From: Synergistales bacterium 58_81
GTDB taxonomy: Bacteria; Synergistota; Synergistia; Synergistales; Thermovirgaceae
Reading direction: 5' to 3'
Length of the DNA: 32,104 nucleotides
NCBI GenBank assembly: GCA_001509095.1
Contig: LGGV01000008.1
Coordinates: 1 to 32,104 of the forward strand
Part shown: positions 5,018 to 23,365 of the stretch, one piece after another
How the letters are laid out: every line of letters begins with the position of its first letter
Position numbering within the stretch: position 1 is the first letter of the stretch
The notes under the pieces: model-generated
The model's input: only the letters and a program-made list of their open reading frames with translations
Database searches by the model: none
Told to the model about the DNA's origin: nothing
Translations under genes and position numbers: made by a program

Positions 5018-5703
5018 ATGGCGATGAACGGAATAGTCAGGGTAGAAAGCATCACCAAGATATACAGCCTGGGCGACGTCAAGGTGGAAGCCCTGCGGGA
5101 GGTCAGTTTCTCGGTGGAGGCAGGAGAGTTCCTATCCATCATGGGGGCTTCAGGTTCAGGAAAGTCGACAATGATGAACATCCTGGGGTGCCTTGATACG
5201 CCGACCGGGGGACAGTATTTCCTTGAGGGTCATAACGTCAGCAGCCTGTCGGGAGACGAACTGGCGGACATACGCAAGCACAAGATCGGTTTCGTCTTCC
5301 AGGGGTTCAACCTTCTCCCGCGGATGACGGCCCTTGAGAATGTAAAACTGCCGATGCTCTACAACGGCGTACACCCCTCCGTGAGGGACAGGAAGGCCTT
5401 GGATGCCCTTGAACTGGTGGGGTTGGGCGACAGGGCTCATCATCAGCCCCAGCAGCTCTCAGGGGGGCAGCAGCAGAGAGTGGCGTGAACGACGCCTCGA
5501 TCATCCTGGCCGATGAGCCGACGGGGAACCTGGACAGCAGGACCAGCAAGGATATCATGGAACTTTTTACTGATCTTAATAGGGAGTACGGAAGGACCAT
5601 AATACAGGTCACCCACGAGGCGGAAATGGCCTCCTACGGCAAGAGGGTCCTCACCTTCCGGGACGGAATGGTGCTGAAGGACGAAAGGACGGGACGGCCG
5701 TGA
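5018..5703 (+). pseudogene. macB: MacB/LolD-type ABC ATPase, split by a small frameshifting deletion
   Basis: The first frame (5018-5488, 156 residues) carries Walker A GASGSGKST (43-51), the Q-loop Q95 and the signature LSGGQQQR (147-154), then stops two codons later. The second frame (5485-5703) resumes with [16 protein letters not shown] (Walker B) and the H-loop VTHE. In this family the signature is followed by a short conserved segment (typically VAIARALVND). About 16 bases encoding its middle are absent at 5483-5486, which both removes residues and shifts the frame. A ribosomal slip could not restore the missing residues. The two halves are otherwise well conserved, so the lesion is recent or a sequence error. 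The end overlaps the permease start (GTGA at 5700). Confidence 0.88.
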
Positions 5704-6926
5704 TATCCCTGTGGGAAACGTCAAGGATATCCTTCAGGGCCCTGACGGCCAACAAGATGCGCTCAGCCCTTACCATGCTCGGGATAATAATCGGCGTTAT
5801 GGCCGTCATCATGATGTTCGCCATCGGCTCCGGCGCAAACAGGGAGATCTCCGACAGGTTTTCCAGCATGGGGAGCAACATGCTTACCGTGAGACCCGGG
5901 GCAAGCCAGGGCCCCGGAGGGGTCCGTAGCGGGACGGTGAACACCCTTACCGTGGATGACGCCAGGGCCATATCGGAGGAGTGCATGGCCGTGGCATACG
6001 CTGCCCCCGTCTACGGAGGCAGCGCCCAGGTCGTTTACGGCAACCAGAATTGGTCCACATCGGTCACAGGTACCACGCCCGATTACCTCTTCGTCCAGGA
6101 CTGGACCGTTGGATCGGGTATCGTATTCACAGAGCAGGACGTCAGAAGCGCGACCAAGGTCAGCGTTATCGGAAAGACGATAGTGGAGAACCTCTTCGGG
6201 GGGGAGGACCCCGTGGGGAAGACCATCAGGATCAGGAACGTCCCGGTGGTAGTGGTTGGGGTCCTTGGTGAGATCGGGGCCAATCATATGGGCAGGGACC
6301 AGGACGATATAATCCTTGTGCCTGTGACGACAGCCCAGAGAAGGCTTTTCAGCTCTTCCAGGTCCGGGTCGGTCTCAACCATTATGGTCAAGGCCCGGAG
6401 CTCCGAACTTCTCGATGCGGCACAGGATCAGGTCGAGTCGCTCCTGAGAATGAGACACCGCATCCGTCAAGGTGAAGAGGACGACTTCTCCGTAAGGAAC
6501 ATGGCACAGATGGTTGAGAACGCCAAGGCCACAACGAGGACGATGACCATGCTTCTCACGGCAGTGGCGGGGGTCTCCCTTCTCGTGGGCGGGATAGGGA
6601 TAATGAACATCATGCTGGTATCCGTCACCGAGAGGACCCGGGAGATAGGCATCCGGATGGCCCTCGGGGCGAAGACCATCGATATAAGGCTTCAGTTCCT
6701 GGTCGAGGCTTTGATGCTATCCCTGCTGGGGGGGACGACGGGGATCCTTCTCGGGGTGGCGGGTGCCCTTTCCATATCAAGGGCCCTCGGCTGGGCGGTG
6801 GAGGTATCGCTGTTCTCGATCTCACTGGCTTTCGGTTTTTCGGCCTTCGTGGGGGTCTTTTTCGGGTACTACCCCGCATGGAAAGCATCGCTGCTGAATC
6901 CCATAGAAGCGCTCCGGTACGAATAA
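5700..6926 (+). CDS. macB: MacB-like ABC permease (FtsX/MacB_PCD family)
   Basis: A 408-residue permease with the MacB topology. There is one N-terminal membrane helix ([20 protein letters not shown]), a large periplasmic domain to about residue 270, then three C-terminal helices with the family segment [20 protein letters not shown]. The C-terminus shows the usual [17 protein letters not shown]. In this operon type the ATPase and permease are separate polypeptides, and the transporter works with the adaptor and TolC-like channel to export compounds or lipopeptides. The substrate cannot be told from sequence. GTG start overlapping the ATPase stop. The gene looks intact, although its partner ATPase is broken. 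Confidence 0.9.
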
Positions 6927-6961
6927 GGCAGCGGTGAGAACCTCCACCGCTGCCTTTCTTT
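6925..6961 (+). terminator. Rho-independent terminator of the efflux operon
   Basis: A 10-bp perfect stem, GGCAGCGGTG with CACCGCTGCC (6927-6936 and 6945-6954), encloses an 8-base loop and is followed by TTTCTTT. It begins at the macB stop codon. On the minus strand the same stem is followed by TTATT, so it may also serve the small convergent gene at 6999-7145. Confidence 0.9.
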
Positions 6962-6998
6962 CCTGAATGATCCGATGCCAACTCTGACGATATGTGCC

Positions 6999-7145
6999 CT
7001 ACCAGGGGCAGTTCGCGTTCTTGAGCCTTACGTTCGGTTCCACGATATTTCCATCGCGGAGATCGGCCTTCAGGAAGGCTCCCTCAGGGAGGCGCCAGTG
7101 TGCTACGCCGTCCTTGAAGACGAGCCGTACAGGCAAATCTCGCAT
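6999..7145 (-). CDS. Small 48-residue protein of unknown function with a near-consensus promoter
   Basis: I do not recognise this protein. The minus-strand frame starts at ATG 7145 with GAGG eight bases upstream and ends at TAG 6999-7001. Its promoter (7180-7208) has a TTGACT box, a 17-base spacer and a perfect TATAAT, placing the expected transcript start about 28 bases before the start codon. The product is hydrophilic and basic, with no membrane segment. It has two tryptophans (17 and 48), a single cysteine (46) and a likely beta-rich centre (KADLRDGNIVEPNVRLKN). The efflux-operon terminator lies just past its stop codon. The promoter and ribosome binding site, rather than homology, are the reasons for calling it. 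Confidence 0.6.
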   Translation of the reverse strand: MRDLPVRLVFKDGVAHWRLPEGAFLKADLRDGNIVEPNVRLKNANCPW

Positions 7146-7179
7146 ATTTCCAACCTCGTTCCTTTCTTAATCTTCATGC

Positions 7180-7208
7180 ATTATAGCACCTCCAGAAAAG
7201 CCAGTCAA
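7180..7208 (-). promoter_or_regulatory. Sigma70-type promoter for the 48-residue gene
   Basis: Read on the minus strand, TTGACT (7203-7208), a 17-base spacer and TATAAT (7180-7185) form one of the best-matching promoters in the window. It points at the small gene at 6999-7145. Confidence 0.75.
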
Positions 7209-7293
7209 ACAGACTAACAAGAGTGTTTTGGCATACTCTTCGTTATCCATTGTATGTTTCACTCCCTTGTGATCCCTTGACAGTATCCAAGGA

Positions 7294-7361
7294 TGGACCC
7301 TGTCCAAAAATGGAACCTGTCCAAAAGTGGACCCTGTCCGGGGGTGGATTTGGTCCAAGGG
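7294..7361. repeat. Four tandem 17-bp units, each containing an imperfect palindrome
   Basis: Units start at 7294, 7311, 7328 and 7345. Units 1 and 3 begin TGGACCCTGTCC, unit 2 has one change (TGGAACCTGTCC), and unit 4 is diverged (TGGATTTGGTCC). Each is followed by an A- or G-rich tail of 4-5 bases. With the next base, unit 1 is the inverted repeat TGGAC-CCT-GTCCA. A further small palindrome, ATCC-AA-GGAT, lies directly before unit 1. The array occupies most of the 277-base gap between the divergent small gene and the ferredoxin-flavodoxin gene, ending about 22 bases before a TATAAT box. It could be an operator array or a REP-like element; sequence alone does not decide. Confidence 0.75.
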
Positions 7362-7383
7362 GTGCAAGATCCGTGCCAGACAT

Positions 7384-7389
7384 TATAAT
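7384..7389 (+). promoter_or_regulatory. Possible -10 box for the EFR1-type gene
   Basis: A perfect TATAAT lies 39 bases before the chosen GTG start. The -35 position falls at the end of the 17-bp repeat array and matches the consensus poorly, as expected if an activator contributes. Confidence 0.35.
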
Positions 7390-7422
7390 CAGTCAGTGTT
7401 GACGGACAGGAGTGATGTTCTG

Positions 7423-8220
7423 GTGTTGAAGGAACCTGTTCTGATCTACGTTTTTTCAGGGTCTGGGAACACCCTTTCCCTGGCTGAAAGGGTCGCCGAC
7501 GTGCTGCTTGAGGATGGGATCGCTGCCCAGTTGAGACCCCTTGAGAGGAGTGACCCAGGGGACACCCGTCGGGCCGGGACCATCGGGCTTGCCTTCCCCG
7601 TGGCCATGTTCTCGACCTACCCCTTCGTCTGGGATTTTGTAGAGAACCTACCCGACGGGCACAACAAGGACATTTTCATGCTCGACACCCTCGCCGGGTT
7701 CAGCGGCGGTATCGTCGGTCCCCTGAAAAGAGCCGTATCGACCAGGGGATACTGTCCCATAGGTGCTACGGAGATACGTATGCCTTCAAACTATGCAAGG
7801 ACCGATCGTGAGAAGCCCGAAGACGGGCGCCTTCGCTCAAGAGGCAGTGAAAAGGCGGCATCCTTTGCGAAGGATCTCGCTTCGGGAAGGGCTTCATGGC
7901 CGTCCATACCCCTTTTGCCGGACCTTGTGAAAAGGCTGGGCAGGGATCCCCGAAGTTCTGCATGGAGGGCGATGCGCAGGAAATTCCCTCTCTCGGTCGA
8001 CGTCCAGAAGTGCTCGAGATGCGGCTTGTGCTCGAAGGTATGCCCAGTGGGGAACATTATCATGGAGGCCTTTCCCGGTTTCGGAGATAGCTGCCTCTTC
8101 TGCCAGAGATGCATCTCTCTCTGTCCAGGGGAGGCTATCGGAGTACGGGGAAGGTCTTTCGTACCCTACCGGGGGGCAGACCTCGAAAAGATGCTCGATA
8201 TGGCTTGCAACGGCCGCTAG
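7423..8220 (+). CDS. EFR1-type ferredoxin with N-terminal flavodoxin-like domain
   Basis: This 265-residue cytoplasmic redox protein has a flavodoxin-like N-terminal domain. The FSGSGNT phosphate-binding motif is at residues 11-17, and the C-terminal domain is a bacterial ferredoxin. The two Fe-S motifs are CSRCGLCSKVCP (from residue 197) and CLFCQRCISLCP (from residue 224), each CxxCxxCxxxCP for one [4Fe-4S] cluster. This is the EFR1 family arrangement, and it should transfer electrons between a flavin and low-potential carriers. The GTG at 7423 is chosen because AGGAG lies ten bases upstream. The frame is open further upstream, but that part crosses the repeat array and is not protein-like. 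The partner enzyme is unknown. Confidence 0.85.
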   Translation: MLKEPVLIYVFSGSGNTLSLAERVADVLLEDGIAAQLRPLERSDPGDTRRAGTIGLAFPVAMFSTYPFVWDFVENLPDGHNKDIFMLDTLAGFSGGIVGPLKRAVSTRGYCPIGATEIRMPSNYARTDREKPEDGRLRSRGSEKAASFAKDLASGRASWPSIPLLPDLVKRLGRDPRSSAWRAMRRKFPLSVDVQKCSRCGLCSKVCPVGNIIMEAFPGFGDSCLFCQRCISLCPGEAIGVRGRSFVPYRGADLEKMLDMACNGR

Positions 8221-8276
8221 TTCGGAAGGTCCTGAAACCTGCAACGCACTCTGATGCGCTGATCGGTCATGAGTGC

Positions 8277-8282
8277 TATAAT
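8277..8282 (+). promoter_or_regulatory. Possible -10 box for the YerC-like regulator
   Basis: A perfect TATAAT lies about 120 bases before the gene, without a good -35. The resulting leader of roughly 110 bases would contain a hairpin with a UUCG-type loop at about 8335-8353 (GGTTCCCC-TTCG-GGAAACC, one bulge). Confidence 0.3.
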
Positions 8283-8400
8283 TCCGCCTGTTGGTGTCCT
8301 TTTTCAGGTCAGAAAGTTCAGTGCTGTCTCCTGGGGTTCCCCTTCGGGAAACCGTTTAGGAGCGGCAGATATCAGAGGAAACGAAGGGGGGGAACCTGGC

Positions 8401-8685
8401 GTGTCTGAAAAGTGGAAGGACGAACTTACCGAACAGCTGGCAAAAGCGATCCTGTCCCTCGAGACAGTCGAGGAAGTCTACGATTTCCTCGAGGACGTGG
8501 CGACCATCGGGGAGATACGGGCTTTGGCCCAGAGGCTAGAAGTGGCCAGAAGGCTCAACGAAGGCGAGACATATCCCGTAATTGCCCAGCAGACCGGTGC
8601 CAGTACTGCTACGATCAGTCGTGTGAAAAAGTGCCTTGACTATGGGGCTGACGGGTACAAGTTGGTCCTTGAAAAGATGCAATAG
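8401..8685 (+). CDS. YerC/YecD family TrpR-like transcriptional regulator
   Basis: The 94-residue protein matches the small TrpR-fold family. An N-terminal helical part (LAKAILSLETVEEVYDFLED) precedes the helix-turn-helix RLEVARRLNEGETYPVIAQQ and the recognition helix TGASTATISRVKKCLDYG. It binds DNA as a dimer; the ligand and target genes are unknown in this family, and there are no tryptophan genes nearby. The GTG start follows AAGGGGGGAACC with good spacing and gives the usual family length. Longer upstream starts in the same frame are not supported by family length. Confidence 0.88.
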   Translation: MSEKWKDELTEQLAKAILSLETVEEVYDFLEDVATIGEIRALAQRLEVARRLNEGETYPVIAQQTGASTATISRVKKCLDYGADGYKLVLEKMQ

Positions 8686-23291: not shown

Positions 23292-23330
23292 TGGCAGGGA
23301 AACATAAAGAGCGTTGGACGAAAAGCCGTA

Positions 23331-23365
23331 AACCGTGAACCGTGAACCGTGAAACGTGAACCACG
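23331..23365. repeat. Heptamer tandem repeat (AACCGTG) next to the MATE stop codon
   Basis: Three perfect AACCGTG units (23331-23351) are followed by two variants (AAACGTG, AACCACG). An inverted GTTCACG copy lies at 23387-23393 inside the MATE C-terminal codons, and a small hairpin AACGG-GTTT-CCGTT (23369-23382) lies between. The array starts two bases from the MATE stop. It may form a compound hairpin at the end of the MATE transcript or be one copy of a dispersed family. Confidence 0.8.

Follow-up and report, generated by a model that had tools for sequence, protein, structure and literature searches.

We found an array of five head-to-tail 17-bp units, each containing an imperfect dyad, between two promoters of Synergistales bacterium 58_81, and read it, at a probability of roughly 0.48, as a possible local multi-site operator for the promoter of an EFR1-family ferredoxin gene. 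The array is located at 7277..7361 on the plus strand of the window, by which we mean the entire 32,104-bp stretch (contig LGGV01000008.1) that was analyzed. The operator reading, which is suggested by the arrangement of the sequence, was favored over that of a neutral or nearly neutral minisatellite, a strong competitor that we consider somewhat less probable.

The array measures exactly 5 × 17 bp, as checked letter for letter, and each unit is composed of a 13-bp imperfect dyad, TGGAC-N3-GTCCA, followed by a 4-bp purine spacer. The sequence-only reading had reported four units with TGGAC/GTCCA-type arms at 7294-7361, all of which were recovered on the plus strand: unit 1 (7294..7310; TGGAC-CCT-GTCCA-AAAA) with five of five arm pairs, and unit 2 (7311..7327; TGGAA-CCT-GTCCA-AAAG), unit 3 (7328..7344; TGGAC-CCT-GTCCG-GGGG) and unit 4 (7345..7361; TGGAT-TTG-GTCCA-AGGG) with four of five each. 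Its count was one short, since these are preceded by a degenerate unit 0 (7277..7293, plus strand; TTGAC-AGT-ATCCA-AGGA) with three of five arm pairs. The ATCC-AA-GGAT palindrome that it had noted ahead of them (ATCCAAGGAT, 7285-7294) is present as sequence, but it represents the junction of unit 0 with the first base of unit 1 rather than a separate small palindrome. Half-sites in the array alternate in direction at 8/9-bp steps, and a second dyad register, GTCCA-N4-TGGAC, exists because the units are tandem and so adds no evidence of its own.

As a tandem array, the repeat is genuine and exceeds chance expectation. Its Tandem Repeats Finder score of 80 was the highest of the 10 rows in the window and was reached by none of 150 dinucleotide shuffles of the window, for which the largest score was 64. 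A two-unit pattern occurred three times in the window and never in the 150 dinucleotide shuffles. The dyad itself is less striking once the tandem origin is granted: arms as long as those of the array dyad were present in 10.8% of shuffled 17-mers, which counts against the operator reading. No Rfam match that would indicate an RNA element was obtained in 6900-8420 up to E = 1.

The genes on this part of the contig are arranged in the order of a macB-type gene, a small minus-strand gene, the array, the EFR1 gene and yerC. The MacB-type permease gene (5700-6926, plus strand) is followed by a terminator-like hairpin of 12 pairs (6925..6956, plus strand) that would insulate the array from read-through from the macB side, where two terminator-like sites were found in a scan of 6900-8420 against a shuffle average of 1.6. 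The small gene (6999..7145, minus strand) encodes 48 aa with no Pfam or NCBIfam match at E 0.001. A sigma-70 promoter positioned for this gene, TTGACT-17-TATAAT, matches 11 of 12 letters on the minus strand (7180..7208) and was the sole promoter-like site reported in 6900-8420 (7208-7180), where shuffles averaged 0.6. On the other side of the array, the EFR1-family gene (7423..8220, plus strand), with flavodoxin-like and 4Fe-4S parts, matched NF038196 at 122.8 bits against a cut-off of 75. Its GTG start at 7423 was preferred over a longer open frame from 7327 because of a Shine-Dalgarno-like sequence and the orthologues. The YerC/HisR (TrpR-family) gene (8401..8685, plus strand) is the second gene downstream of the array.

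Both promoter elements named in the sequence-only reading, the small-gene promoter and the TATAAT before the EFR1 gene, were located where it had put them. The latter −10 element (7384..7389, plus strand) is also TATAAT in two congeners (G001 and G002) and TATTAT in a third (G003). No −35 element was recognizable by eye for the EFR1 promoter, and the scan of 6900-8420 reported no promoter there. The dyad center of unit 4 lies ∼45 bp before the EFR1 transcription start predicted from the −10 element, and the unit reaches towards the −35 region. Repeated dyads adjoining or overlapping a promoter are thus seen in the sequence, and their location, with a divergent promoter on one side and a −10 element lacking a −35 partner on the other, argues for an operator.

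We then counted copies of the array elsewhere. In the source genome (G000; 1.33 Mb, 93% complete), no second copy was found, and the next-best BLAST matches were 15–20 bp long at E 0.46. An exact one-and-a-half-unit pattern had three matches inside the array and two elsewhere, and with one mismatch its counts (34 + 38) were below those of the backwards control (43 + 55). The genome-wide count of units, proposed earlier as the check between an operator and dispersed repeats, therefore yielded one locus only, a result on the operator side, although occurrence at a single locus is no proof of an operator. Among 180 genomes of the class, five matched a three-unit pattern with up to two mismatches. 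Only the source genome and G003 contain the true array, in the same place, which also speaks for an operator, and the two-mismatch matches in G019, G020 and G091 were dismissed as chance, with no repeated unit visible.

The same three-unit pattern was searched in one genome per species for 84,980 species, using contigs of at least 3 kb, and 37 stretches were detected, one of which was that of G003. The other 36 were different sequences in other organisms, mostly plain tandem repeats, and their common period follows from the pattern, which itself demands a period of 17 bp. The nearest of these in letters, in Longilinea arvoryzae, has an 11-bp core, GGACCCTGTCC, in common with the array. It covers the last part of a gene and the brief interval separating this gene from its same-strand neighbor. 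We read the two genes as probable hydrogenase subunits, and no promoter would be expected there. No phage or plasmid relatives of the array were detected up to E = 1, and viral contigs had no match to the exact three-unit pattern. Among the literature matches listed on YerC/TrpR repressors, EFR1 ferredoxins, promoter or intergenic tandem repeats and tandem-palindrome operators, which present their sources in part, none described the array.

REP/BIME elements associated with RAYT (Y1) transposases are intergenic, palindromic and dispersed in many copies. The array is likewise intergenic and palindromic, and one Y1_Tnp match was found in the source genome, as would suit a REP-like element spread or mobilized by a Y1/IS200-type transposase. 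This alternative of the sequence-only reading was nevertheless rejected as hardly credible on copy number in a 93% complete assembly, where the array occupies one locus without dispersed copies and has no phage or plasmid match. Nor did the single-strand DNA fold of the array stand out (z = −1.11), as 27 of 200 shuffles did equally well. A resemblance to what we take to be IS21-type transposon ends was also considered and dropped because the order of macB, the small gene, EFR1 and yerC is undisturbed around the array.

Single sites outside the array were searched in the same genome. Exact TGGANNNNGTCCA counts (19 + 15, array included) were near the backwards control (17 + 11), so that no single-site regulon was visible by this measure, which weighs against an operator. 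Exact TGGANCCTGTCC occurred six times, of which three were inside the array, and its one-mismatch count was 91 against 51 for the control with coding and intergenic sites pooled. Scattered single sites outside the array are possible.

The array is present in two of the four genomes of the genus, at equivalent positions. G003 has four units where the source genome has five, unit 2 being the one without a counterpart, and the alignment of the two arrays differs by this whole unit only, with no partial-unit gaps inside the array. Neither the small gene nor the array is found at this place in G001 or G002, where EFR1 comes immediately after the macB-type gene and has an identical −10 element (TATAATC), so the same promoter element precedes the same gene in the absence of the proposed operator. 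Relatives of the small gene were found in 31 of the 180 genomes of the class and not in these two congeners. Three relatives in the family keep the small gene without the array: G178, with EFR1 present; G179, with yerC present and no EFR1 between; and G177, as judged by pattern scans. By this distribution, the array originated within the genus, or earlier with losses, and predates the split of the source species and G003. The earlier description of the array as old agrees with this history, and its retention since before the split with only a whole-unit length difference is in favor of an operator.

The same comparison bears on whether the divergent small gene, rather than EFR1, is what the array acts on, from a distant position ∼104–188 bp before the predicted start of that gene. 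G001 and G002 lack the array and the small gene together, and in G003 both are intact while the EFR1 orthologue (G003:C38:15624-16384) is disrupted by two frameshifts and one in-frame stop as assembled. This disruption may reflect decay or an assembly error, and it also counts against an operator for EFR1. On the other hand, the three family relatives retain the small gene without any array, the small gene has its own near-perfect promoter and the array is nearer to the other −10 element. We therefore consider service to the small gene very improbable.

We measured the divergence of the array between the source genome and G003. Changes were found at 8 of 68 array positions (0.118), compared with 14 of 131 (0.107) and 6 of 61 (0.098) in the flanks. 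At fourfold sites, the changes amounted to 39 of 223 in macB, 2 of 22 in the small gene, 38 of 120 in EFR1, 7 of 42 in yerC and 28 of 123 in the next gene. The intergenic stretch as a whole has changed more slowly than most silent sites have, and the array does not stand out from the rest of it. This flank-like substitution rate fits a minisatellite and runs against an operator, from which slower change than in the flanks would have been anticipated.

Variation among units had a different pattern. In the source genome, unit-to-unit variation was confined to 5 of 50 arm positions and 12 of 35 center and spacer positions (column permutation p = 0.0037), and without the degenerate unit to 3 of 40 and 9 of 28 (p = 0.0099). 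The corresponding values were 6 of 40 and 10 of 28 in G003 alone (p = 0.039) and 11 of 90 and 23 of 63 with both genomes pooled (p = 0.0044). Arms that vary less than centers and spacers in this permutation argue for an operator and against a drifting minisatellite, but a rotation control in which neighboring columns were kept together was not significant, with 3 to 4 of 17 rotations as good when the true register is included. Of the eight interspecies changes, four fell in left arms (20 positions), none in right arms (20), one in centers (12) and three in spacers (16). The changes in left arms weigh against an operator, and the right arms compared with the other aligned array positions (0 of 20 against 8 of 48) gave a one-sided p = 0.051 in a comparison chosen after seeing the data. 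Taken together, the column and interspecies patterns lean towards half-site constraint, short of proof.

Promoter-proximal minisatellites, or variable-number tandem repeats, consist of head-to-tail units that differ in copy number by whole units. The array resembles them in its head-to-tail units beside a promoter, five here and four in G003, and differs in that its units are short and diverged, with dyad arms better kept than the rest. A neutral or nearly neutral origin of this kind would involve a 17-bp stretch that was tandemly duplicated in the ancestor of the two species and has been drifting since, where whole units were gained or lost by slippage and the dyad is incidental, inherited from a founding unit that happened to be palindromic. 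The plain tandem repeats that dominated the other 36 stretches of the wide scan, and the GGACCCTGTCC case of Longilinea arvoryzae, are in line with such an origin. Survival of the array beyond the species split without a partial-unit indel is not.

We examined whether arrays adjoin other promoters in a tandem-repeat sample of 431 kb (32%) of the source genome, considering arrays of at least 2.5 copies. Six were tagged as intergenic by a crude definition, namely that no 130-aa open frame was present: the 17-bp array, two with 7-bp units and one each with units of 9, 12 and 13/14 bp. The 12-bp array (4.2 copies; L179:11337-11387, contig G000:C17) ends 2 bp before the promoter TTGACG-17-TAGAAT of a ferredoxin-like gene, and the 13/14-bp array (4.4 copies; L180:15191-15248, G000:C17:35191-35248) abuts the −35 element of TTGACT-17-TATACT before a fapR-like gene, both gene names being read from the sequence. 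In G003, both promoter cores are conserved and both arrays are absent, leaving at most a single unit-like stretch at the 12-bp locus, whose promoter core is conserved in all four genomes of the genus. These unrelated arrays at −35 boxes, which are not arrays in G003, support a minisatellite origin. They weaken the step from position to operator because promoter-adjoining arrays arise here without such dyads. Neither contains a comparable dyad by eye, however, and both are younger than the 17-bp array, which speaks against a minisatellite at the EFR1 locus.

Smaller samples of the congeners contained no intergenic array of at least 2.5 copies except for 7-bp units in G003 (256 kb) and none in G001 (136 kb), where the scan is insensitive to diverged arrays, as it missed the 17-bp array of G003 itself. 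Two further repeats were observed in these surveys. A 7-bp unit, CCGTGAA, is repeated 5.3 times at 23326-23362 of the window upstream of an RpiR-type gene, and degenerate heptads of this type, reminiscent of cyanobacterial heptamer repeats, recur in the samples of the source genome and G003. A stretch of ∼88 bp (L180:15096-15190), whose inverted arms are of the GGAGGACCTCC/GGAGGTCCTCC type, has a further copy in the source genome (C126) and one in G003 (C57), and is possibly a small dispersed element.

The end of the array could alternatively belong to a sigma-54-type promoter, with TTGGTCCAAGGGGTGCAAG (7350-7368) as its core and the other units as upstream activator sites. GG and GC elements 12 bp apart in TTGGTCCAAGGGGTGCAAG resemble those of the sigma-54 consensus, their spacing is kept in G003 and unit 4 departs from the other units just there. 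Against this, TTGGTCCAAGGGGTGCAAG matches only 9 of the 13 letters of that consensus, and G001 and G002 lack the TTGGTCCAAGGGGTGCAAG stretch but retain the sigma-70-like −10 element that follows it. A sigma-54 promoter is therefore highly unlikely.

For the operator reading, candidate regulators were sought among known systems. The HisR (YerC) motif has been described in Synergistetes as a palindrome of 20 bp, cacTTTAnnnnnnTAAAgtg, located ahead of histidine genes (PMC9413887, as available in part). The array likewise has a YerC/HisR gene nearby, but its unit does not match the cacTTTAnnnnnnTAAAgtg motif as given in that part of the source (PMC9413887), and HisR/YerC was rejected as its binder on this comparison by eye. 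IclR-family regulators, according to the available part of a second source, bind tandem palindromes and three-box sites as cooperative dimers with centers 18–22 bp apart, at a consensus of GKTYCRYW3-4RYGRAMC or TGRAACAN1-2TGTTYCA (PMC8222616). The array resembles such multi-site operators in its tandem dyads near a promoter, its alternating half-sites and its two dimer registers (TGGAC-N3-GTCCA and GTCCA-N4-TGGAC), and differs from the sites described in that part (PMC8222616) in its center spacing of 17 bp, a consensus unmatched by eye and the absence of a linked regulator.

Three IclR-type genes were found in the source genome, two in G003, one in G001 and none in G002, the drafts being 87–96% complete. 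One pair (G000 C75 and G003 C105) is unmatched in G001 and G002 and thus shares the distribution of the array, but no array-like dyad was found upstream of it. In the 350 bp before the six IclR genes of the genus, the only dyad was GGACCTTGGTCC/GGACCTCGGTCC, present before three of them, and this GGAC..GTCC dyad was set aside as part of a terminator-like hairpin. The lack of a regulator among the HisR and IclR candidates counts against an operator, as do the arrays without a comparable dyad that adjoin −35 boxes elsewhere in the genome. The operator proposed in the sequence-only reading thus retains its single genomic locus but is weakened by the absence of the array in congeners and relatives, by the failure to find a regulator or regulon and by the non-dyad arrays at other promoters.

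If the array is an operator, we infer that a dimeric putative regulator would bind the 13-bp dyads side by side, and that the spacing of 17 bp and the alternation of half-sites would allow cooperative occupation of the ∼85 bp by several dimers. With the last dyad reaching towards the −35 region, the bound protein might obstruct RNA polymerase, or it might activate transcription by substituting for the missing −35 element. A repressor would be suited by the overlap and an activator by the missing −35.

A broader and rather unlikely scenario is that new promoter architecture in this genus repeatedly arises through tandem duplication immediately ahead of −35 boxes. Arrays of 12-, 13/14- and 17-bp units would then have grown in place from local sequence, a unit that happened to hold a dyad would have been kept as a multi-site operator and the EFR1 array would represent one such operator at an early stage of its existence.

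The array is ordinary in kind. As a minisatellite, it would warn against calling an operator from nothing more than a dyad array between divergent promoters. As an operator, it would be one of datable origin, found in two sister species but not at the equivalent position in close relatives. The promoters with and without the array provide a useful natural comparison, which in that case would be one for what a newly grown multi-site operator adds.
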